NCBI RefSeq assembly: GCF_017901135.1
Contig: NZ_CP072801.1
Location: 4,120,501-4,184,500 of the forward strand
Origin: Thiothrix litoralis
GTDB taxonomy: Bacteria; Pseudomonadota; Gammaproteobacteria; Thiotrichales; Thiotrichaceae
DNA length: 64,000 bases
Reading direction: 5' to 3'
Program-made: the position numbers and the translations under genes
Part shown: piece after piece, positions 37,031 to 52,523 of the stretch
How positions within the stretch are numbered: the stretch's first letter is position 1
Layout of the letters: each line of letters starts with the position of its first letter
The notes under the pieces: model-generated
What the model was told of the DNA's origin: nothing
Seen by the model: the letters and a program-made list of their open reading frames with translations, nothing else
Database searches by the model: none

Positions 37031-37459
37031 ATGAGTATGAGTAAAGCGGCACGGCATCAGCCGGGGCAGGCGGGGTTTTCCTTGACGGAATTGATGATCG
37101 TGATTGTGATTATCGGCATCTTGTTGGGGTTGGTATTCAGTAACCTGAATGTGATGGGGGATGCACAAAACCTCAAAGCCAAAAAAGAAGTGGGCGACCT
37201 GAAAATCAAGCTGGAAATGTACCGCGCTGATAATGGCACGTTCCCGGCTTCCGGGGCGTTGAGTGCGTTGATCACGAACCCTGGCAATGCACCGCGCTGG
37301 CGTCAATACATGAAGGCGTTGCCGAAAGACCCGTGGGGCAACGACTACCGTTACCTGAATCCGGGTACGCGCGGTGGCGAAATCGACATTTACAGCATTG
37401 GGCCGGATAAACGTGAAGGCACAGAAGATGACGTCGGTAGCTGGCAACTCGAACAGTAA
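37031..37459 (+). CDS. gspG: Type II secretion major pseudopilin GspG
   Basis: A 142-residue major pseudopilin. It has a prepilin peptidase site G/FSLTELMIVIVIIGILLGLV with Glu at +5. It has the GspG core ALPKDPWGNDYRYLNPGTRGGEIDIYSIGPDKREGTEDDVGSW, including the calcium-binding loop. It forms the pseudopilus shaft. It is first of gspGHIJ, whose partners gspKLMN are 22 kb away on the other strand. It overlaps gspH. Confidence 0.96.
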   Translation: MSMSKAARHQPGQAGFSLTELMIVIVIIGILLGLVFSNLNVMGDAQNLKAKKEVGDLKIKLEMYRADNGTFPASGALSALITNPGNAPRWRQYMKALPKDPWGNDYRYLNPGTRGGEIDIYSIGPDKREGTEDDVGSWQLEQ

Positions 37460-37958
37460 ACCGGGTACGCTGCGGGGTTTTTCCCTGCTGGAAATGATGA
37501 TCGTGATCATGGTGATCGGCATCTTGTACTCGCTGGCAGGTTCGATGTTGAACCTGTCGGTTTCCGATCCGCTGAATGAGGAAGTGGCGCGTTTGCGTGA
37601 GCGCGTGGCGATGGCGCAGGATGAAAGCATCGTGCGTTCCCAAGCGCTGGCCTTGGGCTTTGGGGAAACCGGCTATGCCTTTTTTACCCAGAATGATCGG
37701 CTTCAGTGGGAACCTGTCGAGAAAGATGGCTTGTTGAAGACCTATGAGTGGGTCGGGCAGTATGAGCCGGTGCTTTACCTGCAAGGGCAGGCGGTGAGTT
37801 TGCCCAAAAACAAGGATATTCAGCCGCAAGTATTCATTTTACCTACGGGGGAGATGATGCCGTTTGAGTGGCATTTGCGAGATAAGGATGAGCGCGACAG
37901 TGTGCTCAAGTTCGACAACGTAGGCCGTTTGGTCGATATGGCAGCGGAGTCTGGTTGA
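37428..37958 (+). CDS. gspH: Type II secretion minor pseudopilin GspH
   Basis: A 176-residue minor pseudopilin with processing site G/FSLLEMMIVIMVIGILYSLAGSML and GspH-like RERVAMAQDESIVRSQALALGF. The start at 37428 overlaps the end of gspG by 32 bases; earlier in-frame starts lie deeper in gspG and are less likely. It forms part of the pseudopilus with GspI, J and K. Confidence 0.9.
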   Translation: MTSVAGNSNSKPGTLRGFSLLEMMIVIMVIGILYSLAGSMLNLSVSDPLNEEVARLRERVAMAQDESIVRSQALALGFGETGYAFFTQNDRLQWEPVEKDGLLKTYEWVGQYEPVLYLQGQAVSLPKNKDIQPQVFILPTGEMMPFEWHLRDKDERDSVLKFDNVGRLVDMAAESG

Positions 37959-38350
37959 TGATGCGGCAGCAGCAAGGCTTCAACCTGATCGAAATTATGT
38001 TTGCCTTGCTATTGCTGGGCTTGGTGATCACGGTGAGCGTGGAAACCAGTAGTGGTGATATTGCCAGCTATAATCGCATGAAAGACACTACCTTGGCGCG
38101 TTGGGTAGCGTTTAACCAGCTTGCGGTGGTGCAGACCAGTAAGGGCTTTCCTGCGATTGGCAAGACGGAAGGCAAGCTGGAGATGGGTGATGTGCCTTGG
38201 CAGTGGCGGCAGGAAATCCTGGCGACGCCTGATGTCGACTTGCGCAAGGTGAAAGTCAGCGTGTTCCGTGAAGGGCAGGAAAAGCAAATCTTGGCGGTTG
38301 AGTTGGCTTATGTGGCGAATCCGCAGCCTAAGCAGAGGAACGGGTTATGA
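37958..38350 (+). CDS. gspI: Type II secretion minor pseudopilin GspI
   Basis: A 130-residue minor pseudopilin with the processing site QG/FNLIEIMFALLLLGLVITVSV, where Glu at +5 is kept and Asn replaces the more common Thr. RWVAFNQLAVVQ follows, as in GspI. ATG at 37958 overlaps the gspH TGA by one base; 37961 is an alternative start. Confidence 0.9.
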   Translation: MMRQQQGFNLIEIMFALLLLGLVITVSVETSSGDIASYNRMKDTTLARWVAFNQLAVVQTSKGFPAIGKTEGKLEMGDVPWQWRQEILATPDVDLRKVKVSVFREGQEKQILAVELAYVANPQPKQRNGL

Positions 38351-38994
38351 GGTATGCGCTGCAACGCTCACACGGTTTCACACTGGTTGAGCTGATGATT
38401 TCCTTGGCGATTTTTTCCTTGATGATTAGCTTGGCGTACCAGTCAGTGGGTGTGCTGATGGATACGAGCAGGCAGGTGGAACAGCCGCAGGTTGAATTCC
38501 AGCAATTGCAACGGGCGCTGGTATTTGTGGAACGGGATATGCACCAGCTTGCCTGGTTACGCCCGACGAATAGCACGCTGAATAGCGCGGTGAGTACTGG
38601 TGTCGAGCAGCGTGAGAATAACAGTATTACCCAGCCTGATGAGATCGGGGTATTACTGGCGTTTACCCGTGGCGGCAACCCGGATGTGGCGTGGCAGTTG
38701 CGTTCTTCCGGGCTGATGCGCAGCGGCTTGCAACGGGTGCGTTACGTGCTGGAAAATGGCAAACTGTTACGCCAGACGTGGAATCTGGTGGATCATGTGG
38801 AGGCAGAGGAGCCAGTTTCACTGGTATTGCTGGAGGGTGTGGAAGGAGAGCCACGTTTTCGGTTTATGGCGACGCGGGGTGGGGACTTCAAGGATGACTT
38901 GCCCAAGGATCGGTCAATGTTGGTGGCGGTGGAGCTTTCCCTGAAGCATAAACGCTTTGGGGACATCCGGCGAGTTTTCACAGTATATTTATAA
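38347..38994 (+). CDS. gspJ: Type II secretion minor pseudopilin GspJ
   Basis: A 215-residue minor pseudopilin with processing site G/FTLVELMISLAIFSLMISLAYQSV. GspJ-type LQRALVFVERDMHQL and GLQRVRYVLENGKLLRQTWNLVDH follow. It overlaps gspI by four bases (ATGA). It closes the gspGHIJ cluster. Confidence 0.93.
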   Translation: MRYALQRSHGFTLVELMISLAIFSLMISLAYQSVGVLMDTSRQVEQPQVEFQQLQRALVFVERDMHQLAWLRPTNSTLNSAVSTGVEQRENNSITQPDEIGVLLAFTRGGNPDVAWQLRSSGLMRSGLQRVRYVLENGKLLRQTWNLVDHVEAEEPVSLVLLEGVEGEPRFRFMATRGGDFKDDLPKDRSMLVAVELSLKHKRFGDIRRVFTVYL

Positions 38995-39101: not shown

Positions 39102-40244
39102 ATGAGTATAAGAAAAAATACACTGAGGGCGCTGCTAATGCTGTGGAGTATTGGCTGGCTGCCTGCTGTGCATTGCGCTGAGATTGTCAGGGTGGAAACT
39201 GTTCAGTCACTGTCACGTTCTGTGCTGGGAAGCACGGTTATTCCGTATAAGGAAGTTACGTTATCCGCCCAGATTCCGGGGGCGGTCAAGTTTGTTGCGG
39301 GCGAAGCGGGTTCCGGTTTTCGTCAGGGTGATGTGATTATTCAGATAGATGAATCGCAGTTGATGGCCAAGCGTAATGCTATTCTGGCGCAGATTTCCAT
39401 TGCCCAGGCTTCCGTGCGGAATTCTCAGGCGCAATATACCCGCGAGTTGGTGTCCCCCCGTAGTAAGGATATTGGTGCAATGCCCGGTTTTGGCTTGCCC
39501 GCGATGTTTGACATGAACATGGTGCAGCCGTTCGCGAATTCCATGATGGGCAATTATGACTCTGATATGGGGCGTTATGGCGACTTGATGAGCAGCGCGA
39601 CAGGGGTGTCGCAGGCGCAGAGCAATTTGCAGCAGGCGATGTCGCAATTGCAGGAAATTGATGCGGCTTTGCGTGATGCCAAGTCGGTGGCTCCTTTTGA
39701 GGGTATCGTGCTGGAAAAAATGGTGGAGGTGGGCGATACTGTCCAGCCCGGTCAGCCTTTGATCAAATACGGTTACGTCAAGTACAAGCGCTTGCAGGCC
39801 GATGTGCCGTCAGGGTTAGTGAGTAATTTGAGCGTTGGCATGATTGTCCCTGCCAAGATTGACAGTGATGCTACCACGATGGTGAAAATCACCCAGATTT
39901 ACCCGGTGGCTGATCCCAGCCGCCATACGGTTACGGTGAAATTTGATCTGCCGGTGGATGCAGTCGCAGCACCGGGAATGTATGCCGAAGTCTATCTGCC
40001 CGAATCTAGGCAGGGTGATGCCAAGGTGGTCGTCATCCCGGAAACGGCATTGCTCAGGGGGCGTAGCCTGCCTAGCGTACTGGTTGTGACTAATAATAAT
40101 ACCTCGGAATTGCGCTTGGTGAGGCTCGGCGCAGAGCAAGAGGATGGTAAAGTAGAAGTGGTTTCCGGTTTGAGTGATGATGAGCGTGTTATTGATAATC
40201 CGCCCAGCACTGCTTCTTCTGGTTGGATGCCTCATGCAGAATAA
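39102..40244 (+). CDS. RND pump periplasmic adaptor (HlyD/MFP family)
   Basis: A 380-residue exported membrane fusion protein. A signal peptide (ending AVHCA) is followed by the lipoyl half-motifs VTLSAQIPGAVKFVAGEAGSGFRQGDVIIQID and VAPFEGIVLEKMVEVGDTVQPGQPLI, separated by a helical hairpin. The beta-barrel and membrane-proximal domains follow (VVVIPETALLRGRSLPSVLVV). The hairpin contains an unusual Met/Gly/Phe-rich insert (GAMPGFGLPAMFDMNMVQPFANSMMGNYDSDMG, about residues 127-160), which is not typical of the family. It pairs with the pump 38 bases downstream. No outer-membrane TolC gene is present. Confidence 0.92.
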   Translation: MSIRKNTLRALLMLWSIGWLPAVHCAEIVRVETVQSLSRSVLGSTVIPYKEVTLSAQIPGAVKFVAGEAGSGFRQGDVIIQIDESQLMAKRNAILAQISIAQASVRNSQAQYTRELVSPRSKDIGAMPGFGLPAMFDMNMVQPFANSMMGNYDSDMGRYGDLMSSATGVSQAQSNLQQAMSQLQEIDAALRDAKSVAPFEGIVLEKMVEVGDTVQPGQPLIKYGYVKYKRLQADVPSGLVSNLSVGMIVPAKIDSDATTMVKITQIYPVADPSRHTVTVKFDLPVDAVAAPGMYAEVYLPESRQGDAKVVVIPETALLRGRSLPSVLVVTNNNTSELRLVRLGAEQEDGKVEVVSGLSDDERVIDNPPSTASSGWMPHAE

Positions 40245-40282
40245 ATATGTGAATATGATTTCCCCCGCAAGGAACGTAAGTA

Positions 40283-43200
40283 ATGATGAATGACTCTCCG
40301 CACAACGCACCCAGCCCCCACCAGCATCATTTGGGCATGGCGGGTTCCATGGCCAAAGCCTTCATTACTTCCCCGCTGTCATTGCTGTTGCTGCTAGCGT
40401 TTTTTGCGGTCGGTATTTTGGGGATGTGGGTAACGCCTCGTCAGGAAGATCCGCAGATTTCCGTGCCGATGGTGGATATTTTTGTGCGTTACCCCGGTGC
40501 CTCCGCACAGGAGGTGGAAAACCTCATTTCCCGTCCGCTGGAAAGCATCATGTCGGAAATGACCGGGGTAGACCACGTTTACTCCTATTCCGCCCGCGAA
40601 CAGTCGATGGTGACAGTACAGTTCATTGTTGGTCAGCAGTTGGAACAATCGCTGGTCAAGCTGTATGACAAGCTGGCTTCCAATAAAGACCGTATGCCTA
40701 TCGGGGTGCAAGAGCCGCTGGTCAAGCCGAAAGGAGCGGATGACGTTCCCTTGGTGACCCTGACCCTGTGGTCAAATCAGGTCGATGATGCCAATTTGCG
40801 GCTGGTGGGGCTGGATGTCTTGCAGAGCCTGCGTGAAGTAAACAATACCAGCCAGAGTTTTATCGTCGACGGTCGTCATGACCAGTTGAAGGTGGAAATC
40901 CTGCCCGAACGTTTGGCGACGTTTGGCGTGTCGCTGGAGCAGGTGGCGAATGCCATCCGCATGGCCAATTCCGAGCGCAATACCGGGTCAGTGGAGCCTG
41001 ATGCGCGGGTGTTCCGGGTCTACAGTGGTGCTTTCCTGAGTTCTGGTGAAGATGTCAAACGCTTGATGGTGGCGGTGATTGACGGGCGTCCGGTTTACGT
41101 GCGTGATGTGGCAACCGTGACGGAAGAGCCCAGTGATGCTGGGCGTTCAGTGGGTTATTACTCTGGGTCTGCGGGCACTGAAGGGGAAGAGAAAGCTGAT
41201 AATGCCCCGGCTGTTACCTTAGCGATTGCCAAAAAACACGGCACGAATGGGGTGGATGTTGCCAGCGAAGTGCTGAGGAAACTGGATACCCTCAAAGGCC
41301 GGATTATTCCCGATAATGTCCACGTCGCGGTGACCCGTAACTACGGTGCAACAGCCAAAGCCAAAGTTGATGAGTTGATTTTCAAACTGTTCGTGGCAAC
41401 CGGCATTGTGACGATACTGGTCTGGTTCTTCCTCGGCTTGCGTGCGGCAGGGGTGGTATTGATCGTTATTCCAGCGGTTATTACCACGACGGTGTTTTCG
41501 GCGTGGCTGATGGGGATGACGATTGACCGGGTGAGTTTGTTCGCCCTGATTTTCTCCATTGGTATTCTGGTGGATGATGCCATCGTGGTGGTGGAAAATA
41601 TTTACCGACGCTGGTTGTTGACCGAAGACACCGACGTTGAAACGGCAGTGGATGCGGTACGTGAAGTGGGTAACCCGACCATTCTGGCAACGGGTACAGT
41701 TATTGCGGCCTTGTTGCCAATGGGTTTCGTCAGCGGCATGATGGGGCCGTATATGTTACCTATCCCGGTGTTGGGGTCGGTGGCAATGGTGATCTCCTTG
41801 TTTGCCGCGTTTGCGTTTACGCCGTGGTTGACCAACCGTTTCAAGCCTTCCCTGAAAAGCCTGCATGAGGCAGCAGAAAAGGAACACAAGCAAGCAGCGC
41901 GGATGGAAAAACTGTTCCGTGGCCTGATTGTGCCCTTGGTGACGAACAAGAAAAAAGGCTACGCCTTCCTGTTTGGGATCATTATCGTGTTCTTCGCTTT
42001 CATGCTGCTGTTCTATCCGCTCAAATCAGTGCGGGTAAAAATGCTGCCGCTGGATAACAAGCCGGAATTCAACGTGGTGTTGAATATGCCGGAAGGCACG
42101 GCACTGCCCGTGACGGCTAACATGCTGCATTCAATGGCAGCCAAGCTGAAAGAAATCCCGGAAGTGACTGCGTTGCAAACCTACACAGGGACTGCCTCGC
42201 CGTTTAACTTTAACGGTTTGGTGCGCCATTACTACTTGCGCCAAGAGGCATGGCAGGCCGATATTCAGGTGCAACTGACGGATAAGCATGACCGTAAGCG
42301 TACCAGTCACCAGATTGCGGTCGAGGCGCGTGCCTTATTGCAACCGTTGCTGAAAAATTCGGGCGGTAAGTTGCAAGTGGTGGAAATGCCACCAGGCCCG
42401 CCGGTATTGCAGTCCGTGGTGGCCGAAATCTATGGCCCTGATGCGAATACCCGCCGTCAGGTTGCTGCCGATATGACCAAATTCTTTGCGCAGGCTGAAA
42501 ACCTCGATGATGTTGATAACTTGATGGAAGAGGATCATGAAATCCTGCGTTTCATCGTCGACTCTGATAAGGCGCAACGTAACGGCATCACGGCGGAAGA
42601 TGTTAACCGCACGTTGGAAATGGCAATGGGTGGCTACATTCTGGGCGACATCAAGAAAAATGCCTTGATTGATCCAACCCGTATTGTGATGCAAGTACCG
42701 TTGAGTGCCCGTTCCCAGATTTACCGACTGTCACAATTGCCCGTGACCAATCACATAGGGCAGTTTGTGCCGCTGCATGAACTCGGCACGTTTGTGTTCG
42801 ATAAGCAGGACAAGCCAATTTACCGCAAGGATCTGCGTGCAGTCGAATACGTCACTGCTGAAACGGTCGGGCGTTTGGCAGCACCGGTTTACGGTCAGGG
42901 GCAAGTGGAAAAACTGCTGGCAGATGCCAATGATGGCAAGGGTTACATAACACCTGATGGTACGCGCTTACTGGATGAAGCCTACTGGTTGAAGTCACCG
43001 CAAGATGTCGAGAGCAAGTCTGCCTTTGAATGGGGCGGTGAGTGGACAGTAACGTGGGAAACCTTCCGCGACATGGGGATTGCGTTCGCCGCTGCACTGG
43101 TATTGATTTACATGCTGATCGTGGCACAATTTGGAAACTTTACCTTGCCAGCGATTATTATGGCACCGATCCCACTGACCTTGATCGGGATTGTGCCGGG

Positions 43201-44002
43201 GCATTGGTTGATGGATGCCGAATTCACCGCCACGTCGATGATTGGTTTCATCGCGCTGGCGGGGATTATCGTGCGTAACTCCATCTTGTTGGTAGACTTC
43301 GCCCGTGAGGCGGTGGTCAATGGCGAAACGGTGCTGGAAGCAGTTATCCGCTCATGTGAGGCGCGTACCCGTCCAATCATCATTACTGCCCTCGCGCTGT
43401 TTGGTGGTTCGATGGTTATCCTGTCTGACCCCATTTTTCAGGGGATGGCGGTATCGCTGATCTTCGGTGGTGCGGTGGCAACCCTGCTTACCCTGCTGAT
43501 TATTCCGTTGGGCTGTATCAGTGCGGGTGATTCACTGGGCGGTTCCCCCGGTGGAAATGGTGGCGGCGCAGCCGGGCAAGGTGGACATCCTTCCGGTACG
43601 GCGGGTGCTGCGCAGTCCGTGAATTCAGGTAAAGGTATTGGTACTGTTGCCAAGGATGCAGTAGTCTATACCGGACTTTATTTTGTATCCTTATTGACCA
43701 GCTTGGTCAGTGGGATAATCGGCATGTTTGCTGCTGGACGTAAGCACTTGCAAAAGCGCAAGGCACGTGGTGTCGAAAAGCAGCAAGCTGTACGTAAGCA
43801 AGCTAAGGCACAGGCTGCGGCTTCCGTTGCCAAGGTGGTGGCAGAAAAGAAACCTGCGACGCCTGCCGTGGAAGAGGTCACTGAGGAGATACAACAAGAA
43901 TCGTTAACACCACAAGATGATATGCATCCTGTTTCTGGTGAAGTTCAGGAAAGGAAGAAGCCGTCAGGCAGACGGGGCATAAAACTTAAGACAGACATTT
44001 AA
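40283..44002 (+). CDS. RND-family efflux permease with extended C-terminus
   Basis: A 1239-residue inner-membrane proton-driven pump. Motifs include SPLSLLLLLAFFAVGILGMWVTPRQEDPQI at TM1, FSIGILVDDAIVVVENIYRRW with the paired Asp in TM4, and MIGFIALAGIIVRNSILLVDFARE near TM10. It is of the AcrB-like group. After TM11 there is a Gly/Ser-rich stretch (GGSPGGNGGGAAGQGG), a last span, then about 100 residues of Lys/Ala/Glu-rich tail ending KKPSGRRGIKLKTDI. Usual length is near 1050, so the tail is an addition. Confidence 0.93.
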   Translation: MMNDSPHNAPSPHQHHLGMAGSMAKAFITSPLSLLLLLAFFAVGILGMWVTPRQEDPQISVPMVDIFVRYPGASAQEVENLISRPLESIMSEMTGVDHVYSYSAREQSMVTVQFIVGQQLEQSLVKLYDKLASNKDRMPIGVQEPLVKPKGADDVPLVTLTLWSNQVDDANLRLVGLDVLQSLREVNNTSQSFIVDGRHDQLKVEILPERLATFGVSLEQVANAIRMANSERNTGSVEPDARVFRVYSGAFLSSGEDVKRLMVAVIDGRPVYVRDVATVTEEPSDAGRSVGYYSGSAGTEGEEKADNAPAVTLAIAKKHGTNGVDVASEVLRKLDTLKGRIIPDNVHVAVTRNYGATAKAKVDELIFKLFVATGIVTILVWFFLGLRAAGVVLIVIPAVITTTVFSAWLMGMTIDRVSLFALIFSIGILVDDAIVVVENIYRRWLLTEDTDVETAVDAVREVGNPTILATGTVIAALLPMGFVSGMMGPYMLPIPVLGSVAMVISLFAAFAFTPWLTNRFKPSLKSLHEAAEKEHKQAARMEKLFRGLIVPLVTNKKKGYAFLFGIIIVFFAFMLLFYPLKSVRVKMLPLDNKPEFNVVLNMPEGTALPVTANMLHSMAAKLKEIPEVTALQTYTGTASPFNFNGLVRHYYLRQEAWQADIQVQLTDKHDRKRTSHQIAVEARALLQPLLKNSGGKLQVVEMPPGPPVLQSVVAEIYGPDANTRRQVAADMTKFFAQAENLDDVDNLMEEDHEILRFIVDSDKAQRNGITAEDVNRTLEMAMGGYILGDIKKNALIDPTRIVMQVPLSARSQIYRLSQLPVTNHIGQFVPLHELGTFVFDKQDKPIYRKDLRAVEYVTAETVGRLAAPVYGQGQVEKLLADANDGKGYITPDGTRLLDEAYWLKSPQDVESKSAFEWGGEWTVTWETFRDMGIAFAAALVLIYMLIVAQFGNFTLPAIIMAPIPLTLIGIVPGHWLMDAEFTATSMIGFIALAGIIVRNSILLVDFAREAVVNGETVLEAVIRSCEARTRPIIITALALFGGSMVILSDPIFQGMAVSLIFGGAVATLLTLLIIPLGCISAGDSLGGSPGGNGGGAAGQGGHPSGTAGAAQSVNSGKGIGTVAKDAVVYTGLYFVSLLTSLVSGIIGMFAAGRKHLQKRKARGVEKQQAVRKQAKAQAAASVAKVVAEKKPATPAVEEVTEEIQQESLTPQDDMHPVSGEVQERKKPSGRRGIKLKTDI

Positions 44003-44020
44003 TCTGGAAGGAAGACTAGC

Positions 44021-45658
44021 ATGATTATATTTAACAAAAAGCAACTGGCGACAGCGGTTGCCACAGTAGCTACTTCTGCTGCCGTGGTATTGTTTAGCGC
44101 CAACGTCTGGGCTGACGGCGCTGATTTACCACCACCACCACCGGGGCCATTTATTGTTGAAGGTGCAGCAGCATCAGCCGCAGCCGCAGCAGATACCCCG
44201 ATGAATGCACCTGTTGCACCAGCAGCACCGCAAGCACCCGAAGCGCCGGTAGCACCTGAAGCGCCTGCTAAATCTGAAGCTGCCGCAGCGCCGACTGCTG
44301 AGATTAAAACACCTGAAGCTCCTTCAGATCCGGCGGTTCCTACGGTTTCCGATGCATCAGCAGACACAGTTGAGGTGAAGACACCCGAAGCCCCCGAAGC
44401 CCCGGTAGCCGCTGAAGCGAAAGCGCCAGAAGCCCCGGTAGCCGCTGAAGCGCAAGCTCCGGCAGCACCCGAAGCCCCGGTAGCCGCTGAAGCACAAGCC
44501 CCGGCAGCACCAGAAGCCGCTGAAGCACAAGCTCCGGTAGCGCCCGAAGCACCACCGGTAGCCGCTGAAGCACAAGCTCCGGCAGCGCCCGAAGCCCCGG
44601 TAGCCGCTGAAGCACAAGCTCCGGCAGCGCCCGAAGCCCCGGTAGCCGCTGAAGCACAAGCTCCGGCAGCGCCCGAAGCCCCGGTAGTACCAGAAGCCGC
44701 TGAAGCACAAGCCCCGGCAGCACCCGAAGCCCCGGTAGCCGCTGAAGCACAAGCTCCGGCAGCACCAGAAGCCCCGGTAGCCGCTGAAGCACAAGCCCCG
44801 GCAGCCCCGGTAGCCGCTGAAGCACAAGCTCCGGCAGCACCCGAAGCCCCGGTAGCCGCTGAAGTACAAGCTCCGGCAGCACCAGAAGCCGCTGAAGCAC
44901 AAGCCCCGGCAGCACCAGAAGCCCCGGTAGCCGCTGAAGCACAAGCTCCGGCAGCACCAGAAGCCGCTGAAGCACAAGCCCCGGCAGCACCAGAAGCACC
45001 GGTAGCCGCTGAAGCACAAGCTCCGGCAGCACCCGAAGCCCCGGTAGCCGCTGAAGCACAAGCCCCGGCAGCGCCCGAAGCCCCGGTAGCCGCTGAAGCA
45101 CAAGCTCCGGTAGCGCCCGAAGCCCCGCCGGTAGCCGCTGAAGCACAAGCTCCGGCAGCGCCCGAAGCCCCGGTAGCCGCTGAAGCACAAGCTCCGGTAG
45201 CGCCCGAAGCCCCGCGGGTAGCCGCTGAAGCACAAGCTCCGGCAGCGCCCGAAGCCCCGGTATCCGCTGAAGTACAAGCTCCGGCAGCGCCCGAAGCCCC
45301 GGTATCCGCTGAAGTACAAGCTCCGGCAGCACCCGAAGCCCCGGTATCCGCTGAAGCGCCCGAAGCCCCGGTAGCCCCTGAAGCACAAGCTCCCGAAGCG
45401 CCAAAAGCTCCAACTGCACCCGAGGGGCTTCAGGTGGTAGTACCGGACGCAGCAGCAACCCAAGATGCAGCATCCGAGGTTCCGGCGGCTCCTGCTCAGC
45501 CAGAAGCACCTGCTGTGCCAGTGCAACCCGCAGAGCCGCCTAAGCCAGAAGTACCTGCAGCACCCGAAGTTCCGGCGGCTCCTGCTCAGCCAGAAGCACC
45601 TGCTGTGCCAGTGCAACCCGCAGAGCCGCCTAAGCCAGAAGTACCTGAGCAGAAGTAA
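44021..45658 (+). CDS. Exported Ala/Pro/Glu repeat protein
   Basis: A 545-residue low-complexity protein. A signal peptide (LATAVATVATSAAVVLFSANVWA) leads to DLPPPPPG and then a long run of 14-residue units of type AAEAQAPAAPEAPV, with small variants. The end carries two 30-residue repeats containing PAQPEAPAVPVQPAEPPKPEVP. It has no cysteine and no recognisable domain. It should be an extended, stiff, acidic chain in the periplasm, similar in style to TonB or Pro-Ala linkers. It follows the pump gene by 18 bases, so it is in the same operon, and ends with a terminator. Confidence 0.85.
   Translation: MIIFNKKQLATAVATVATSAAVVLFSANVWADGADLPPPPPGPFIVEGAAASAAAAADTPMNAPVAPAAPQAPEAPVAPEAPAKSEAAAAPTAEIKTPEAPSDPAVPTVSDASADTVEVKTPEAPEAPVAAEAKAPEAPVAAEAQAPAAPEAPVAAEAQAPAAPEAAEAQAPVAPEAPPVAAEAQAPAAPEAPVAAEAQAPAAPEAPVAAEAQAPAAPEAPVVPEAAEAQAPAAPEAPVAAEAQAPAAPEAPVAAEAQAPAAPVAAEAQAPAAPEAPVAAEVQAPAAPEAAEAQAPAAPEAPVAAEAQAPAAPEAAEAQAPAAPEAPVAAEAQAPAAPEAPVAAEAQAPAAPEAPVAAEAQAPVAPEAPPVAAEAQAPAAPEAPVAAEAQAPVAPEAPRVAAEAQAPAAPEAPVSAEVQAPAAPEAPVSAEVQAPAAPEAPVSAEAPEAPVAPEAQAPEAPKAPTAPEGLQVVVPDAAATQDAASEVPAAPAQPEAPAVPVQPAEPPKPEVPAAPEVPAAPAQPEAPAVPVQPAEPPKPEVPEQK
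44390..45370 (+). repeat. Tandem 42-bp-type repeats in the Ala/Pro/Glu gene
   Basis: The core unit is about 42 bases, beginning GCTGAAGCACAAGCTCCGGC, with point and length variants in multiples of three. The units encode AAEAQAPAAPEAPV. High identity between neighbours implies recent expansion and likely length variation among strains or assembly collapse. Confidence 0.9.
45479..45647 (+). repeat. 79-bp perfect direct repeat, 90-base period
   Basis: Bases 45479-45557 recur identically at 45569-45647, separated by 11 bases. Each copy encodes the same Pro/Ala-rich stretch at the C-terminus of the repeat protein. Confidence 0.9.
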
Positions 45659-45666
45659 AATAATAC

Positions 45667-45695
45667 AGCCCACCCTTTCTCACGGGTGGGCTTTT
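45667..45695 (+). terminator. Terminator after the repeat protein gene
   Basis: Nine-pair stem AGCCCACCC / GGGTGGGCT with loop TTTCTCAC, followed by TTTTG. It separates the pump-repeat operon from the ParA-like gene, although the T run is short and readthrough is possible. Confidence 0.8.
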
Positions 45696-45721
45696 GAATA
45701 ACCAGACGAAGTGAGTCGTGA

Positions 45722-46345
45722 ATGATTACGCTGATTGGCAACCTCAAAGGGGGAACCGGCAAAAGCACCATAACCTTTAATCTGGCGCTATGGGTAGCTA
45801 CCCGTCACAACAAGCATGTGATTGTGTATGACCTCGATCCGCAGGCGACCACGGCTGACGCTTTTGACATTCGTCAGGAAGAAGGTTTCTTGCCTGCGAT
45901 TGTACCCCGAACCTCGGTTGCCGATTTGGGTGCTGAAGACAACACGTCTGAAATTCTGGTGGACATGGGCTTGGCAGATATGGCGGCTGTTGAGGCGTCT
46001 ATCCGTAAAGCTGATCGTATTGTGGTGCCGGTTGCACCCAGTCAGGCAGATATATGGTCTACTCAACGTTTCCTGAGAACGGTTGAGGAGATTCGTGGTG
46101 GTCGTGCCGTTGAGATTCTGGGGATTATCAACCGGGCGGATACCCATCGTGCCGTAAGGGAAACGGGTGAAGCCGCTGAGGCGATGCAGATGCTGCCCGG
46201 CATTAAGTTGTTGGAGCCGCGCCTGTATATGCGCACCACTTACCGGCGTTCCTTCAGTGAAGGCTTGGCGGTATTTGAAATGGAGCCGCGTTCCAAAGCG
46301 GCATTGGAAATGGATGCATTGGGACGTGCCTTGTATCCGGTCTAA
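45722..46345 (+). CDS. ParA/MinD-family P-loop ATPase
   Basis: A 206-residue ATPase with the deviant Walker A motif KGGTGKST near residue 9 (signature Lys in KGGTGKS), YDLDPQATTADAF (switch I/A' region) and LVDMGLADMAAVE (Walker B). It is short compared with chromosomal ParA and lacks an N-terminal DNA-binding domain, like the small ParA-type proteins that position cell structures. No ParB and no parS-like repeats are seen beside it, so a role in replicon partition is unlikely. Phe-Arg-rich motifs YMRTTYRRSFSEGLAV near the end could contact DNA or membrane (inference). Confidence 0.9.
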   Translation: MITLIGNLKGGTGKSTITFNLALWVATRHNKHVIVYDLDPQATTADAFDIRQEEGFLPAIVPRTSVADLGAEDNTSEILVDMGLADMAAVEASIRKADRIVVPVAPSQADIWSTQRFLRTVEEIRGGRAVEILGIINRADTHRAVRETGEAAEAMQMLPGIKLLEPRLYMRTTYRRSFSEGLAVFEMEPRSKAALEMDALGRALYPV

Positions 46346-46386
46346 ACATTATTTTTAATAAATCTGGGGTTTTTAAGGAGATTCAG

Positions 46387-47007
46387 ATGCATATTTTACG
46401 TTGGTTAATGAAACATCCGATTATGCTGGCTTGGTTGCTCGCAATTGTCGCTATACTGTTGAATTTTGGTATAAGCAGCAAGCAGGGTGATGAACATGGT
46501 GAAGTCGCCGCCGGTCATGATGCAGCCCAAGTGGTAGCAGGAGAACATGCCCAAGCAGCTCCTGCGGCAGAAGCAGCGGCTCCGGTAGTAGAAGCTCCGG
46601 CTCAACAAGCAGCGGCTCCGGTAGTAGAAGCTCCTGCGGCAGAAGCAGCGGCTCCGGTAGTAGAAGCTCCGGCTCAACAAGCAGCGGCTCCAGTAGCACA
46701 AGCTACTACACCGACTGATTTATTGCGTGCGGCGCGTGAAGCTTATTGGGCTAACGAACTGGATCGCGCCATTGCGCTATACATTGATGTACTCAAACAA
46801 GCCCCGGACTCCCTTGAGTACAAAGGTGAACTGGCAAACGTTTACTGGAAGCAAGGTAATTCACAACAAGCAGCTACACTGTTTACTGAGATTGCCCCGC
46901 AGCTTGCCGCACAAGGCCGCACCACTGAAGCATTGAACATGAAGTTATATGTGGATATGGTGAGCCCTGAGCTGGCAAAGCAAATTGATGCTGCCCTGAA
47001 AAACTAA
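46387..47007 (+). CDS. Membrane-anchored protein with Ala/Pro/Glu repeats and TPR-like domain
   Basis: A 206-residue protein. One N-terminal membrane span (PIMLAWLLAIVAILLNFGI) is followed by repeats of AAPVVEAPAQQ / AAPVVEAPAAEA (about residues 60-105). A helical C-terminal domain (LLRAAREAYWANELDRAIALYIDVLKQAPDSLEYKGELANVYWKQG) looks like two tetratricopeptide repeats. The repeat linker echoes the larger protein upstream. It follows the ParA-like gene by about 40 bases with AAGGAG before its start. Probable role is protein-protein contact on the periplasmic side. Confidence 0.8.
   Translation: MHILRWLMKHPIMLAWLLAIVAILLNFGISSKQGDEHGEVAAGHDAAQVVAGEHAQAAPAAEAAAPVVEAPAQQAAAPVVEAPAAEAAAPVVEAPAQQAAAPVAQATTPTDLLRAAREAYWANELDRAIALYIDVLKQAPDSLEYKGELANVYWKQGNSQQAATLFTEIAPQLAAQGRTTEALNMKLYVDMVSPELAKQIDAALKN
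46559..46697 (+). repeat. Short tandem repeats in the TPR-like gene
   Basis: Alternating units of about 33-36 bases built on GCGGCTCCGGTAGTAGAAGC. They encode AAPVVEAPAQQ and AAPVVEAPAAEA and are similar in style to the 42-bp units in the gene at 44021. Confidence 0.85.
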
Positions 47008-47224
47008 AGCGGCGCGTATGCCGTGAATAGCTGGCAGGCTCAGGGTTCATAAATCTTGACCTGCCTTGCTATATCAGAAGAAAAAAGAATAAATTGGAAT
47101 ACCAAAGGTTATGTTAGAGATCATGTTATGAATAGCGCATTGGATAATGCGTGTCACGCATTCACAGTAGCCAGTCGGGTTGTTTGAGGAGATAAACAGC
47201 ACGCTGGAAAATCAGGAGCCATGT

Positions 47225-48010
47225 ATGAAAACGAATGACAAATCCGCAGGGATTAACGACATTGAGCACGACTTGCACGATGTCGAAGACGAGTTACAGG
47301 ATTTTGAGGAACGCCAGGTTAATGTAACTCGTACCTTGCAGATGATTGTTTATCCAGCAATGGTGGCTTTCATCATTCTTTCTGCTTATGGCTTCTATCT
47401 GGTTCAGTCCTTGACGACGGACGTTCATACGTTGACAGAGACCATTTCTGAAATGAACCGGACTGTCGATACCAATATGGGGCGTATGGCGAATAACTTG
47501 GATACCATGACCGGACAAATGGGCAGTTTGGTGCAATCGACAAGCGAGATGACCCATAATATTGTGGGCATGAACAGCAGCACTCAGGATATGGCGGGCA
47601 ATATGCAGCAAATGAATGCATCAACCCAGAATATGGCGGTTTCTACCTATAACATGCAACGTGATATGTGGAGTATGAATAAAAATATTTCCGGCCCGAT
47701 GAAAATGTTCAATAAATTTAGCCCTTTCGGAAGTGATAAAACTTCACCTTATGTCGTACCTCCTCCAGCAGCAACGGCAACACCTTACTATAATTATTAT
47801 ACTTGGCCACAAAGCGGTGTGGCTCAGCCACAACTAGCAGCGCCTGTTGCGGCGGTTATGTCGGAACAGCCTGCCGCCGTTGAGACTGCTCCTGCCCCAC
47901 CAGCAGCGGCACAGCAGCCTGTTCAGCCGAATGCGGCAACAGCCAAAGATGACCACAGTTCTGTGGAAGAGGAAAGCGACAAGTTCGTTGCCATGATGAC
48001 TAAAGGATAA
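47225..48010 (+). CDS. Membrane-anchored coiled-coil protein
   Basis: A 261-residue protein. An acidic N-terminal helix (DIEHDLHDVEDELQDFEERQ) precedes one membrane span (LQMIVYPAMVAFIILSAYGFYLV). A coiled coil rich in Met, Asn and Thr with 11- and 7-residue periodicity follows (MNRTVDTNMGRMANNLDTMTGQMGSLVQSTSEM and onward). A Pro/Ala-rich tail ends DKFVAMMTKG. It has the layout of a methyl-accepting-protein-like stalk without a signalling domain. ATG at 47225 follows AGGAG. It precedes the dynamin-like gene by four bases. Confidence 0.8.
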   Translation: MKTNDKSAGINDIEHDLHDVEDELQDFEERQVNVTRTLQMIVYPAMVAFIILSAYGFYLVQSLTTDVHTLTETISEMNRTVDTNMGRMANNLDTMTGQMGSLVQSTSEMTHNIVGMNSSTQDMAGNMQQMNASTQNMAVSTYNMQRDMWSMNKNISGPMKMFNKFSPFGSDKTSPYVVPPPAATATPYYNYYTWPQSGVAQPQLAAPVAAVMSEQPAAVETAPAPPAAAQQPVQPNAATAKDDHSSVEEESDKFVAMMTKG

Positions 48011-48014
48011 AACT

Positions 48015-49487
48015 ATGACACCCGCCAAGCGAATGGAGCAACGCCTCAAACGGTTGCAGGAACATCTCAAGCGCGAGAATCCGGTTCTGGTTGAGGCAGT
48101 TAACCAGTACCGTGAACTGGATGCGATTGCTAAAAAGCTTGGCTTGTTGGCCGGTGATGAGTCCTATGCTACCCAGATTTCATGGTGGCCGATGATTTCC
48201 GTTTTGGGAACATTCTCGGCGGGTAAGTCCAGCTTTATCAATACGTTTCTGGATCTGGACTTGCAACGCACGGGTAATCAAGCGGTCGATGACCGTTTTA
48301 CGGTGATTACCTTTAGCCCGGATGGTCAAGTGCGTACTTTGCCGGGTTTGGCGCTGGATGGTGACCCACGCTTCCCTTTTTACCAGATCAGCGAAGACAT
48401 TGAGCAGGTGTCCAAGGGGGAAGGGGCAAAAATCGACAGTTATCTCCAGATGAAGATTGCTCCCAGTGAGAAATTACGTGGCAAAATCCTGATCGACTCG
48501 CCGGGGTTTGACGCAGATGAGCAGCGCAAGGCAACCTTGCGGATTACCGACCACATTATTGAGTTGTCTGACTTGGTGCTGGTGTTTTTCGATGCACGCC
48601 ATCCTGAACCGGGTGCGATGCAGGATACCCTGGAGCATCTGGTGAAAGGGGCAATGCGTCGTAGTGACAGCAGCAAGTTCTTGTTTATCCTGAATCAGAT
48701 TGATACCTCGGCGCGGGAAGACAACCTCGAAGACATTGTGTCATCCTGGCAAAAAGCCTTGGTGCAGCAGGGCTTGTCGGCAGGTAGTTTCCACATCCTG
48801 TTCAATGACAAGCTGGCAGTGCCGGTGCCGAATGAAAATGTCTGGGCGCGTTATGTCGCCAAGCGCGATGCTGATTACACGCGCATTATGGCACGGGTGG
48901 AGGGGGTGAATACGGAGCGGGTTTACCGCATTGTGGGCGCGATGGAGTCGCAGGCCAATGAGATTGAGCAGCAAGCAGTACCACGTTTGCGCCAAGCGTT
49001 GCAGCGCTGGAAAAAACAGGTGTTGATGACCGATGCCTTTGCGTTTGGTTTGTTGGCGATTGTCTTGCTGACCATGAGTATTGAGTTTGAATATTGGGAA
49101 GGCTTTTTGTTTAACCCGCCGTGGCTCTCGTCGTTGGCTGGTAATATCTGGACAACGGGGGCGGTGATGACGGTTGTGGCATTATTAGCGTTGGGTTTGC
49201 ATTATCTGGTTCGTAACCGTCTTGCCAAACGTATTGCTGCTACATTGGGCACAGATGAGCCTTACGGTAATCTGTCGGCGGCTTTTCTGAAGAGTACCAA
49301 AGTCTGGCGCAGTATTTTTCAGACTACACCTGCAGGGTGGGGCAGGCGTACCCGTGGACGTTTGGATACTATTCGTCACACTACTGACCGCTTTGTCCAG
49401 CATTTGAATGACCGCTTTACCAGTCCTTCTGGTGATAAAAATCCTTCCGGTGATAAAGCCAAATCTGCTTCAAGTGCTCCAGCATAA
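48015..49487 (+). CDS. Dynamin-like GTPase with C-terminal membrane spans
   Basis: A 490-residue protein. The GTPase domain has G1 GTFSAGKSS (residues 65-73), switch Thr in RFTVITF, G3 DSPGF (161-165) and G4 NQID (227-230), the order and spacing of the dynamin superfamily. Helical regions flank two membrane segments (about residues 341-357 and 379-398), and a basic Ser-rich tail repeats PSGDKNPSGDK. Bacterial dynamin-like proteins remodel or repair membranes. This is a single gene rather than the tandem pair found in many bacteria. It is tightly packed with the coiled-coil gene. Confidence 0.9.
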   Translation: MTPAKRMEQRLKRLQEHLKRENPVLVEAVNQYRELDAIAKKLGLLAGDESYATQISWWPMISVLGTFSAGKSSFINTFLDLDLQRTGNQAVDDRFTVITFSPDGQVRTLPGLALDGDPRFPFYQISEDIEQVSKGEGAKIDSYLQMKIAPSEKLRGKILIDSPGFDADEQRKATLRITDHIIELSDLVLVFFDARHPEPGAMQDTLEHLVKGAMRRSDSSKFLFILNQIDTSAREDNLEDIVSSWQKALVQQGLSAGSFHILFNDKLAVPVPNENVWARYVAKRDADYTRIMARVEGVNTERVYRIVGAMESQANEIEQQAVPRLRQALQRWKKQVLMTDAFAFGLLAIVLLTMSIEFEYWEGFLFNPPWLSSLAGNIWTTGAVMTVVALLALGLHYLVRNRLAKRIAATLGTDEPYGNLSAAFLKSTKVWRSIFQTTPAGWGRRTRGRLDTIRHTTDRFVQHLNDRFTSPSGDKNPSGDKAKSASSAPA

Positions 49488-50511
49488 AACGCTAACCCTG
49501 GGGTTGGTGTTTTGTCTTGGTGTATGGCTGTTGTCCGCTTGTGGAAAACAGCCATCAGCAATGCGTCTGGAAGGGATGCAGGGGACGGCACTCTGGCACG
49601 TTACCCTGACGCACCCACCCGCTACTATCAGCGCCCCCGAACTTCAGGCAGGTCTAAGCAAGACCTTCGCGGATACCAATCAATTGTTGGCGACTTGGGA
49701 TGATACTTCGGAAGTAGCTCGCTTCAACCGTTATCAAGGGACTGATTGGTTTAGTATTTCACCACCATTGGCGAAGCTGTTGGAGCTGACCTTGCAGGTT
49801 AGCAGGCAGAGCGGTGGCGTCTACGATGTGACGGTGGAGCCGTTGGTTAAGCTATGGGGTTTTGCCTCGCATGATGCGGGCAAGGATGTAGTGCCCGCCA
49901 AGGCTGACATTGACATAGCTCTAGCCAAGGTGGGTTATCAGAAGCTTCAGGTAAGACTTGACCCTCCGGCTGTGCGTAAGTCACAAGCCGATCTTCAGGT
50001 AGAACTGGCTTCGGTAGCAGATGGTTTTGCTGCCGATCAAGCGGGCTTGTATCTGGAGTCACTGGGTATTAGCGAATACATGGTGGAAATCGCGGGTGAA
50101 GTCCGTACCCGTGGTCTCAGTCCGCGAGGTGATGCTTGGCGTATTGCCATAGAAAAGCCGGTTGAGGAAGATCATGTGATTCAGAACGGGGTGAACCTGC
50201 GTGATGCAGGTTTGGCAACTTCTGGCGATTACCGTAACTTTTTTGTGCAGGGTGGCAAACGCTATTCGCATACGTTTAACCCGGTAACGGGTGCGCCGGT
50301 AACGCATAATCTGGCCTCTGTTTCGGTGATGTCGCCAGAAGCCACGCTTGCTGATGCTTACGCTACCTTGTTTATGGCATTGGGTGAGCAAAAGGGGAAA
50401 GCCTTTGCTGATGCTCATGCCATTAATGCCTATTTTATTTGGCGAACAGATAAAGGGTTTGAAACAGCCGATACAGTGGGATTTCACGGTCTATTAACTG
50501 GCAATCAGTAG
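49474..50511 (+). CDS. apbE: FAD:protein FMN transferase ApbE, lipoprotein
   Basis: About 345 residues. A lipoprotein signal with lipobox LSAC leads to the ApbE domain. Matches include YDVTVEPLVKLWGF, ASVADGFAADQAGLYLESLGISEYMVEIAGEVRTRG, LRDAGLATSGDYRNFF and YSHTFNPVTGAPV with the catalytic and Mg-binding residues. It attaches FMN covalently to Thr or Ser of periplasm-facing redox subunits such as NqrB, NqrC or RnfG. GTG at 49474 gives a proper lipoprotein signal and overlaps the dynamin gene by 14 bases; ATG at 49408 is an alternative. No obvious flavinylated target is next to it. Confidence 0.93.
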   Translation: MLQHKTLTLGLVFCLGVWLLSACGKQPSAMRLEGMQGTALWHVTLTHPPATISAPELQAGLSKTFADTNQLLATWDDTSEVARFNRYQGTDWFSISPPLAKLLELTLQVSRQSGGVYDVTVEPLVKLWGFASHDAGKDVVPAKADIDIALAKVGYQKLQVRLDPPAVRKSQADLQVELASVADGFAADQAGLYLESLGISEYMVEIAGEVRTRGLSPRGDAWRIAIEKPVEEDHVIQNGVNLRDAGLATSGDYRNFFVQGGKRYSHTFNPVTGAPVTHNLASVSVMSPEATLADAYATLFMALGEQKGKAFADAHAINAYFIWRTDKGFETADTVGFHGLLTGNQ

Positions 50512-50687: not shown

Positions 50688-51464
50688 ATGTCAGACATTT
50701 TCGCTCCCAAAGAAATCCCGGTAATTAAAACAAGCGGCCTGGTTCTGGCCATGGTTTTGTGTGCTTCCCTGTTAAGTGCCTGTGACTGTGATGGTGATTG
50801 CAATGCTGCTACCAGTGCAGTCAGTTCAACGCCAACGCCAACGCCAACGCCAACGCCAACGCCAACGCCAACGCCAACGCCAACGCCAACGCCAACGCCT
50901 CCAATTGCTGCAAAGTGCGCGGATGCCCGCTTCTGTAAGTTTGATAGCACTGGCACAATGTTGGATGATTCCGCTACTTCATGGTCGTGTGTGCAGGACA
51001 AACTTCTGGGTAACTTCTGGGAAGTAAAAACTGATGATGCTGGTTTACGTGATAAAGACTGGACTTACGCCAAGGCTGGTACTGCGGGTGCTTGTGGTGG
51101 TTCATTGGCAGTTTGTTCGCCTGATGCCTATGCGGCAGCCGTGAATGCAGCAGCTACCAAGCCTTGTGGTCCATTGGCTTGTAGGTTGCCTAGCCATGCG
51201 GAAATGATTTTCCTTAGTTTTCCCTCGACTTTCTTCCCTACCGCAGGGAAAACCACGCCAACCACTACGGGTTATGCTCCTCCAGTAGCATTCTTCCCTG
51301 ATCAGATCGCAGATGGTTTCTACTTCAATTCCACTGATGATCGTCAGGTCGCTTATGGGGTTTCCATCCCGGCAGGTAGTAGTGTTGATGCGATCAGTCT
51401 TCTTGGCATGGCTCCAGCAGTTGACCCTACTTTAGCGGGTCATGTTCGCCTGATTTGTAAGTAA
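50688..51464 (+). CDS. Lcl/DUF1566-like lipoprotein with Pro-Thr stalk
   Basis: A 258-residue lipoprotein. After lipobox LSAC the chain has a Cys-rich stretch (DCDGDCN), then about 12 Pro-Thr pairs, then a globular domain. That domain has FWEVKTDDAGLRDKDWTYAKAGTAG, CRLPSHAEMIFL and GHVRLICK, which resembles the DUF1566 (Lcl C-terminal) domain. Members occur on cell surfaces; some bind collagen-like or other ligands. It is paralogous to the gene at 51618. The Pro-Thr stalk would hold the domain away from the outer membrane. Confidence 0.82.
   Translation: MSDIFAPKEIPVIKTSGLVLAMVLCASLLSACDCDGDCNAATSAVSSTPTPTPTPTPTPTPTPTPTPTPTPPIAAKCADARFCKFDSTGTMLDDSATSWSCVQDKLLGNFWEVKTDDAGLRDKDWTYAKAGTAGACGGSLAVCSPDAYAAAVNAAATKPCGPLACRLPSHAEMIFLSFPSTFFPTAGKTTPTTTGYAPPVAFFPDQIADGFYFNSTDDRQVAYGVSIPAGSSVDAISLLGMAPAVDPTLAGHVRLICK
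50827..50898 (+). repeat. Hexanucleotide tract, 12 copies of CAACGC
   Basis: Twelve perfect units encode alternating Pro and Thr. The period is a multiple of three, so slippage changes stalk length without breaking the frame. Confidence 0.95.
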
Positions 51465-51473
51465 TTTTTGCTG

Positions 51474-51495
51474 AGGGGGAGGGCTTCCTCCCCCT
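51474..51495 (+). terminator. Hairpin after first Pro-Thr lipoprotein
   Basis: Nine-pair stem AGGGGGAGG / CCTCCCCCT with loop GCTT. The following TTCATCAT has few T, so it may act as a weak or Rho-assisted terminator. Confidence 0.65.
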
Positions 51496-51617
51496 TCATC
51501 ATAAAAAATACTACGTCCATATCAAAAAAAACCTCTTTCTTTCTGTACTGTGCTATAAATATTATTGTTGCGTCAGAATGGCAACTCATCAACTTATTTA
51601 TCTTATAGGGCAGAATT

Positions 51618-52523
51618 ATGGCTATGTTAACAACTCAGTTTAATACACTAGAATTTGGTCAAAATAAAAGCAGAATTTTTTTGGCGGTAGCGCTTTCAGC
51701 TTCCCTGCTGACAGCGTGTGGCGGTGGTAGTTCGTCGACGACTGTTGATCCGACTACTACAACGCCTGTTGAGCCAACGCCGACGCCGACGCCGACGCCG
51801 ACGCCAACGCCGACGCCGACGCCAACGCCAACGCCAACGCCAACGCCAACGCCAACGCCAACGCCAACGCCGACGCCGACGCCGACGCCAACGCCAACGC
51901 CCTCCTCAAGAACCTTTACTAAGCTAAATCTGACTGGCGCAGCTTATGTTCCAGATGGTGTGCAAACGATCGGTTGTGTGAAGGACTCCAAAGATAACAA
52001 ATATTGGGAAGTGAAAACCAACGCGGCTGATACTGTAAATTCAGATTTCCGCGATGTTGACTATGGTTATTTCTGGGGAGTTAATGTGGGTTCTACGGCT
52101 GGCACACCTGCTGGTTCTGGTGCTCTTATTGCGGCTAGCTCATGTTCAGGATCTGGTTCAACACTGACCAAATGTAATACAGATGCTTATGTTCAGGCGG
52201 TGAATGCGATGAATGCTGGCAAAGGGTTGTGCAACAAAACCACGTGGCGTTTGCCTACATCGGCTGAATTGTTAGGGTTAATGGACAGCAGTAAAACGAC
52301 TTCGCCTTATATCTATAACGATTTGGGCAGCACTGCTTTCGATGCCGCTGATACTGACGGGCGCGAGTATGTCTATGCTTATTGGTCTTCTACGCCTGTG
52401 ACGGGTGCTGAAGCTACAGCGCGTCAAGCAGTTAGCTTCTCTAATAAATTAGAGAATGGTCAGATTAAGTCTCACCAAATGGTTAATCAAATCAACGATC
52501 ACATTCGCTTGATTGCTGACTAA
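51618..52523 (+). CDS. Lcl/DUF1566-like lipoprotein with long Pro-Thr stalk
   Basis: A 301-residue lipoprotein, lipobox LTAC, with a Gly/Ser/Thr-rich start and about 21 Pro-Thr pairs. The following domain has KYWEVKTNAADTVNSDFRDVDYGYFWG, TWRLPTSAELLGLMD, YAYWSSTPVTG and DHIRLIAD, the hallmark order of DUF1566/Lcl_C. It is a paralogue of the upstream gene with a longer stalk. Its stop overlaps the end of the convergent feoC by four bases. Confidence 0.87.
   Translation: MAMLTTQFNTLEFGQNKSRIFLAVALSASLLTACGGGSSSTTVDPTTTTPVEPTPTPTPTPTPTPTPTPTPTPTPTPTPTPTPTPTPTPTPTPTPSSRTFTKLNLTGAAYVPDGVQTIGCVKDSKDNKYWEVKTNAADTVNSDFRDVDYGYFWGVNVGSTAGTPAGSGALIAASSCSGSGSTLTKCNTDAYVQAVNAMNAGKGLCNKTTWRLPTSAELLGLMDSSKTTSPYIYNDLGSTAFDAADTDGREYVYAYWSSTPVTGAEATARQAVSFSNKLENGQIKSHQMVNQINDHIRLIAD
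51775..51900 (+). repeat. Hexanucleotide tract, 21 copies of C(A/G)ACGC
   Basis: Twenty-one units of CAACGC or CGACGC encoding Pro-Thr. The A/G variants come in blocks, which suggests block duplication rather than uniform slippage. Confidence 0.95.

Follow-up and report, generated by a model that had tools for sequence, protein, structure and literature searches.

Introduction

Knowledge of sulfur globules goes back more than a century, and that of their coat proteins some decades. In purple sulfur bacteria these globules are periplasmic and coated by Sgp proteins; in Allochromatium vinosum the most abundant of them, SgpD, is encoded beside the gene of a hydrophobic/amphiphilic exporter (PMC10386293, in excerpts). 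ParA-type ATPases associate with the nucleoid, and their stimulation comes from partner proteins that are shown or suggested to act via a positively charged disordered N-terminus (excerpts of PMC10241942). In the open-licence literature, which leaves out most subscription papers, we found no published machinery placing or shaping sulfur globules, and a review of organelle positioning (PMC13052382) contains no word that starts with sulfur, sulphur or globule. Here we consider a run of eight genes at positions 39102–50511 of a 64,000-nucleotide stretch of the Thiothrix litoralis genome (the window, that is, the whole stretch analysed). In order, they encode an RND periplasmic adaptor, an RND permease (further referred to as the pump), a secreted repeat protein, a small ParA-type ATPase (ParA), a membrane-anchored TPR protein, a single-span coiled-coil protein, a dynamin-superfamily GTPase (dynamin) and an ApbE flavin transferase. 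We think it rather probable that this locus represents, in Thiothrix, a conserved module organising periplasmic sulfur globules.

Gene order in Thiotrichaceae and other Gammaproteobacteria

The family sample comprised 63 Thiotrichaceae genomes, from which 40 loci were fetched, and the class sample comprised 369 gammaproteobacterial genomes, from which 57 of the 90 dynamin loci were fetched. The genes of the adaptor, the pump, ParA and the coiled-coil protein occur together in 24 of the 40 family loci. In all 24 the order adaptor, pump, ParA, TPR, coiled coil, dynamin is kept on one strand, usually with the gene for a secreted low-complexity protein sitting between the pump and ParA. The same four genes were found in 13 of the 57 class-level dynamin loci (11 of them in the family order) and in eight of 36 loci from named records, a few of which belong to Thiotrichaceae (8/8 in the family order). 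The contig scan of the named records had the Thiothrix dynamin as its sole query and thus retrieved close relatives only.

The genes form a conserved unit, beyond chance, whose order is kept across the genera of the family and further. An earlier note on the window had read the run as a spatially organised envelope machine and had named conservation of the order across several genera as its check. The order is kept in distant Gammaproteobacteria as well as in the family, and the pump, ParA and the coiled coil are found together outside this class too. The conserved unit stands, and a ParA-organised envelope assembly is still the best reading of it; ApbE drops out, being a neighbour and not a core member (near dynamin in 19/40 family loci and 0/57 class-level loci).

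Taken singly, the adaptor gene is present in 26/40 family and 24/57 class-level loci, the coiled-coil gene in 30/40 and 22/57, respectively, and the TPR gene in 39/40 family loci. The pump or ParA lies in the dynamin stretch in 30 of the 57 class-level loci, and neither of them does in 27, some of these stretches being cut by contig ends; for six of the 27, ParA is encoded elsewhere in the genome. Recurrent additional genes outside the family encode DUF4412 proteins (12/57 loci) and DUF302 proteins (16/57). A protein of approximately 131 residues, sterol-carrier-like by eye, is encoded in 11/54 loci, including L117 (9227–9622) and L179 (1498–1926); its gene adjoins the adaptor gene in both loci inspected.

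Co-occurrence of ParA with sulfur globule proteins

The 369 gammaproteobacterial genomes were searched for sulfur globule proteins (SGP; 55 genomes), dsrA (119), ParA (65, at least 189 bits) and dynamin (90). Three genomes with weak ParA matches near 110 bits were dropped. ParA is present in 49 of the 55 SGP-positive genomes versus 16 of the 314 SGP-negative ones; 49 genomes carry both, 16 ParA only, six SGP only and 298 neither (Fisher test, 4e-40, with related genomes counted as independent here and below). The association holds at the level of genera (34, 11, 5 and 222 in the same order; p 2e-28) and of families (25, 7, 2 and 142; p 7e-22, the total being taken as 176 family labels). Within the dsrA-positive genomes, ParA occurs in 43 of 49 with SGP and in 12 of 70 without it, hence it follows the globule proteins rather than sulfur oxidation alone. 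All 55 SGP genomes contain ParA or dynamin. Among the 150 SGP matches listed, 137 are in ParA-positive genomes, and 16, from 15 genomes of 11 families, are no more than 15 kb from ParA, in each case upstream and on the same strand. We consider a link between the module and sulfur globules likely.

The position between the pump and parA is further called the slot. It usually encodes a secreted low-complexity protein; an open reading frame (ORF) is missing there in three loci, namely L193, L206 and L114. Slot proteins of Thiotrichaceae are mostly Ala/Pro-rich, often with a DLPPPPPGPF-like stretch (by eye), and those of other families are often Gly/Tyr/Asn-rich. Outside the family 96 slot ORFs were listed and 83 were scanned against 24736 families, with ten from repeat genomes and three likely read in a wrong frame (L179 8558, L126 4667, L141 5116) left out. 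At E 1e-3, SGP was matched by 16/83 (best E 6.5e-15) and DUF4412 by 10/83. The Pfam SGP model matches the slot over its cut-off in L119 (7050–7493, E 1.9e-7) and below it in L124 (E 1.9e-5) and L127 (E 3e-4). The earlier note had missed the sulfur globule protein genes inside the clusters of relatives.

In the window the slot gene (44021–45658, + strand) encodes a chain of 545 residues rich in Ala, Pro and Glu, with a signal-peptide-like start (by eye) and no Pfam or NCBIfam family match. It contains a 42-bp tandem array at 44422–45357 (22.7 copies); a 36-bp array is found in the TPR gene (46557–46704). Judged by its position only, the chain would be an analogue of the sulfur globule proteins. 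Long antisense ORFs cover the repeat gene (44340–45673) and are probably a by-product of its repeat composition. The window genome carries dsrA, and its profile search gave no SGP at E 1e-3. Two SGP-like genes are located elsewhere in this genome (L290 and L291), both encoding secreted proteins, Gly/Asn/Tyr-rich by eye, with E 0.013 and 0.032 in the profile search and 6.7e-5 and 4.1e-4 in Pfam, both below the cut-off; the second (Pfam E 4.1e-4) fits TrAA12 better.

Among 249 genomes of the phylum, ParA was found in 39, that is, in the window genome and in 38 genomes outside the class. Fifteen of these 38 loci were fetched: 14 have the coiled coil, ten a readable pump end and one dynamin. In four of the five outside-class genomes with Pfam-level SGP, the SGP gene is located within approximately 1 kb upstream of ParA, and in some 11 of the 15 loci Gly/Trp/Asn-rich secreted ORFs (by eye) precede ParA. 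One locus, from the class Magnetococcia, encodes two SGP-like proteins directly before ParA (E 4.9e-4, below the cut-off, and E 1.3e-17, over it). We take this genome to be that of Magnetococcus marinus MC-1. Sulfur deposits are reported for this organism (PMC6783814, in excerpts). The same locus (L297, 12431–19795) contains an ORF of 2454 residues on the opposite strand, after the coiled-coil gene.

The C-terminal tail of the pump

The pump gene (40283–44002, + strand; ACR_tran, E 2e-139) encodes 1239 residues. In 54 homologues the protein extends 133–357 residues past its last normal membrane span, marked by PLGCISA. The extension is a variable Lys/Ala/Pro-rich stretch ending in RRGIRLK, and in 50 of the 54 homologues this motif lies within 12 residues of the C-terminus. 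The tail of the window pump comprises the 165 residues after the twelfth transmembrane segment (TM12; codons at 43505–43999, + strand). A single long helix is predicted there, and the end is disordered; the motif reads RRGIKLK (43970–43990, + strand) and is our candidate for a ParA docking peptide. The motif is matched by 0.2% of shuffled tails. Together with the 15 preceding residues it contains, on average over the 54 tails, 8.0 Lys and Arg and 1.4 Asp and Glu. None of the eight other RND permeases of the Thiothrix genome has the motif; one of the eight, a near twin of the pump (L263, G000:C1:1430119-1433271), stops right after PLGCISAGKSL, with no tail.

The motif and ParA are present and absent together. 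A readable pump end was available for 56 ParA-positive genomes, 26 of them from Thiotrichaceae; all 56 have the motif, in frame in 55 and only in another frame in one (G118). Outside Gammaproteobacteria it was found in 10/10 readable pumps. To form the ParA-negative set, 34 dynamin- or SGP-positive genomes were searched, of which 17 matched the pump at E 1e-200. Ten of the 17 passed our own cut of at least 1290 bits for a cluster-type pump, and the seven weaker matches were left out of the motif count, as were G224, whose pump is truncated by the end of its contig, and two truncated copies in G403. The motif was present in one of the nine ParA-negative genomes with a readable cluster-type pump. 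Three of the nine (G149, G239 and G403) are 88, 72 and 85% complete, respectively, and the absence of ParA is uncertain there. For the remaining six, completeness is 95% or more, and an intact motif is missing from all of them, the tail of G202 having a degenerate form; they belong to four families, with three genomes from one family. In two of these families, that of the window and f141, sister genomes carry both ParA and the motif, and therefore joint loss is likely there; the sample holds no ParA-positive sister for the other two. A stricter comparison of 30 ParA-positive genomes outside the family versus six ParA-negative ones at least 90% complete gave p 5e-7, with G118 counted as motif-positive. 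Several copies of the cluster-type pump occur in G403 (L268, L285 and L289) and G379 (L271 and L284); the readable copies have no tail motif.

It is mainly because of this joint presence and absence that we take the tail as the site ParA would grip, and on balance we favour the view that it serves for ParA docking. The pump tail, absent from the earlier note, is thus the probable partner of ParA.

The ParA gene (45722–46345, + strand; CbiA, E 2e-13) encodes a deviant Walker A motif, NLKGGTGKST, whose residues K9, G10, G11, G13, K14, S15 and T16 are invariant in six homologues. The closest solved structure is ParF (4dzz, E 4.6e-13, profile positions 7–202), and the NCBIfam model ParA_partition (NF041546) scores 114.6 bits, below its cut-off of 180. 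Two alternatives were considered. A ParABS partition system was rejected, as no ParB was recognised among the eight proteins by family scans. The N-terminus of the TPR protein was rejected as a partner as well: it is short and varies, and it is the pump tail that tracks ParA.

Scaffolds, dynamin and neighbouring genes

The TPR protein (46387–47007, + strand; TPR_19 over the cut-off) carries Ala/Pro repeats. The coiled-coil protein (47225–48010, + strand) matches no family over the cut-off; its gene likely starts at the ATG at 47225 rather than at the TTG at 47180. By eye, each of the two begins with a short N-terminal segment, followed by a single span and a larger body at the C-terminus, and the span of the coiled-coil protein is conserved (IVYPxxxAFIxLxxYGFxL). 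This arrangement suggests an N-in topology for the TPR protein, with its TPR body in the periplasm, and the C-terminal body of the coiled-coil protein would be periplasmic as well.

The dynamin (48015–49487, + strand; Dynamin_N, E 6.9e-14, 52.7 bits against a cut-off of 27) has a C-terminal hydrophobic hairpin and an EHD-like fold. Its model (predicted local distance difference test, pLDDT, 84) matches EHD4 with Z 22.2 and rmsd 5.1 over 357 residues, in a comparison with VIA-align that leaves room for families it does not list. This GTPase may well be a general inner-membrane maintenance protein standing at the end of the run by chance, a view to which we give nearly an even chance and which is compatible with the proposed role of the other genes. 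It is found in 60/63 family genomes (46/46 good ones, 8/8 genera), including those without the pump and ParA; this ParA is absent from 34 of the 90 dynamin genomes, and dynamin was not seen in 14 of the 15 ParA loci outside the class. Yet it tracks SGP strongly (50/55 SGP-positive versus 40/314 SGP-negative genomes, p 5e-31) and, where the core genes are complete and ordered (24 family loci and 11 at class level), closes the gene run in the same place. The case for dynamin as an integral part of the module, as supposed in the earlier note, is weak. It was also dropped as the defining gene, given the 27 class-level loci where it occurs without the pump or ParA; these fall within L185–L235. Together with L130, L132 and L137, the occurrences of dynamin that have no pump or ParA nearby come from many Gammaproteobacteria and from some metagenome-assembled genomes labelled Alphaproteobacteria, Hyphomicrobiales or just bacterium.

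The Thiothrix genome carrying the locus is complete, in a single contig of 4.28 Mb. The earlier note had read eight consecutive same-strand genes here, and all eight ORFs were found on the + strand at its coordinates; its families hold for the RND adaptor and permease, ParA, TPR, dynamin and ApbE. The adaptor (39102–40244, + strand; HlyD_D23, E 4.9e-12) scores over the cut-off of RND_mfp (TIGR01730), as the permease does over that of ACR_tran, which places both in the RND families. Family scans of the eight proteins, to which this search was confined, gave no outer-membrane factor of the TolC family, in agreement with the earlier reading that neither TolC nor ParB is present. The terminator-like stem-loop reported at 45667 was found at 45667–45692, between the repeat gene and parA, among the + strand features; the terminator scan assigns it to the − strand, and a run of four T also follows it 3' on the + strand (by eye).

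The run ends with ApbE (49408–50511, + strand; E 2e-75, 254 bits, cut-off 25.6), which has a lipoprotein-like start. A function centred on ApbE or flavinylation was rejected because of its absence near dynamin in the class-level loci. Genes for gspG-, H-, I- and J-like pseudopilins (37031–38994) stop about 100 bases 5' of the adaptor gene. A link to type II secretion was set aside as family-level synteny, with GspG in 30/40 family loci and 0/57 class-level loci. On the 3' side of ApbE (50688–52523) lie two lipoprotein-like genes in tandem, which carry long Pro-Thr repeats, and related genes occupy the same place in several Thiothrix genomes.

Proposed role and alternatives

We suggest that the adaptor and the RND permease would sit in the inner membrane beside secreted low-complexity proteins, which would coat or fill the globule compartment: SGPs in many relatives, the Ala/Pro/Glu chain in Thiothrix. 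ParA bound to the nucleoid would hold and space the assembly by gripping RRGIRLK at the end of the disordered, presumably cytoplasmic, tail of the pump, as other ParA-type ATPases grip the disordered basic end of a cargo partner. The pump would then be the trans-membrane link placed by ParA, and the anchored TPR and coiled-coil proteins would act as periplasmic scaffolds tying it to the globule coat. Dynamin, where present, might remodel or bend the inner membrane where globules bulge. The full picture, in which ParA on the nucleoid positions and shares out sulfur globules across the inner membrane via the pump tail while the TPR and coiled-coil proteins link the coat, is tentative, and we hold it at a little less than even.

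Several observations weigh against it. The Thiothrix slot protein matches no SGP model (PF17228), 16 ParA-positive gammaproteobacterial genomes have no Pfam SGP, ten of the 65 have no dsrA, and outside the class only 5/38 ParA-positive genomes have Pfam-level SGP. The SGP model is one of low complexity and may both miss and over-call; in control genomes it gave 0/14 at E 1e-3 and 1/14 at E 10. Ten of the 40 family loci, Leucothrix included, have neither the pump nor ParA over the cut-offs in the stretch, which in two of these loci stops less than 2 kb upstream. All ten retain the TPR gene and dynamin, and a secreted low-complexity protein is encoded 5' of the TPR gene in three of the four examined in full. 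G149, whose contig ends nearby, has the motif and no ParA found. Deletion of sgpD in A. vinosum gave no visible effect, according to excerpts of PMC10386293. The membrane side of the tail is a further point. In the predicted structure of the window pump end, a confident membrane bundle is followed by a long helix (RND residues approximately 1119–1187) and then, from residue 1189 on, by a disordered end containing the motif; in model residues 315–365 (RND 1189–1239) pLDDT is below 50 except for one residue. The first part of the helix after TM12 is hydrophobic in most homologues, and if this long segment were a thirteenth span, the motif would be periplasmic and could not meet ParA. The hydrophobic segment is missing in a few homologues that have both ParA and the motif (L206, L227 and L233), so that the tail would be cytoplasmic there on the usual count of twelve spans. 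These homologues favour a cytoplasmic tail. As a separate observation, L063, from a family genome with no pump at this site, shows a short, incomplete match to ParA (51% identity, 74 bits) at the usual place of parA, some 1.2 kb upstream of dynamin, possibly a remnant.

The genes might instead make up an efflux pump of the ordinary kind, exporting toxic sulfur or hydrophobic compounds and positioned by ParA, with the SGP genes travelling along through a shared need connected with sulfide and the globule not being the cargo. The pump and the adaptor are normal members of their families, ParA occurs without Pfam SGP in the 16 gammaproteobacterial genomes mentioned and in 33/38 genomes outside the class, and the A. 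vinosum gene after sgpD is not sulfide-regulated (PMC10386293, in excerpts). Such a pump would not account for the SGP genes inside the run, between the pump and ParA, in several families, nor for the tracking of SGP by ParA within dsrA-positive genomes, nor for the anchored scaffolds that belong to the unit; we consider this explanation unlikely. Still less probable, in our judgement, is that the cluster is a lineage marker, a block co-inherited in sulfur-oxidising Pseudomonadota with no joint function, where ParA serves something else. The sampled genomes are related by descent and were counted without tree-based correction, and dynamin has a life of its own in 27 of the 57 class-level loci. 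However, the association between ParA and SGP persists at the genus and family levels, the cluster occurs outside the class, gene order and strand are kept, and ParA and the motif are jointly absent from six well-assembled genomes of four families, with sisters carrying both in two of them. A module organising sulfur globules is the reading preferred here.

With named genes and a motif of seven residues, such a module can be tested directly in cultured organisms. If the proposal is true, ParA positioning would be extended to a cargo on the far side of a membrane. It would then be, to our knowledge, without precedent both as a ParA system whose partner is an efflux pump and as machinery that organises sulfur globules.

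Comparison with known systems

Dynamin shares the Dynamin_N domain and an EHD-like fold with EHD and bacterial dynamin-like proteins. Unlike the EHD ATPases, it has no EH domain (Pfam scan, E 0.1), ends in a hydrophobic hairpin and has a G4 motif that reads NQxD. With the tripartite RND efflux pumps the locus has the adaptor and permease families in common; it differs from them in the long tail ending in RRGIRLK, in the linkage to ParA and scaffolds, and in having no outer-membrane partner among the eight genes.

SgpA–D of A. vinosum resemble the module in that genes of the SGP family lie within it in relatives; Allochromatium itself was not identified in any of our genome samples. In its excerpts, the work on SgpA–D (PMC10386293) deals with coat proteins. 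The regularly spaced prolines of SgpD described there recall the Thiothrix repeat chain, and sgpD is next to the gene of an exporter, a possible counterpart of the pump.

The McdAB system of carboxysomes and PpfA of chemoreceptor clusters are similar in having a ParA-type ATPase encoded beside its presumed cargo, and, if the pump is indeed the partner as we infer, in having a disordered basic peptide on a protein presumably linked to that cargo. In contrast to these systems, no McdB or ParB was recognised in our locus. Here an RND pump would supply the partner through its C-terminal tail, and the cargo would lie in the periplasm.

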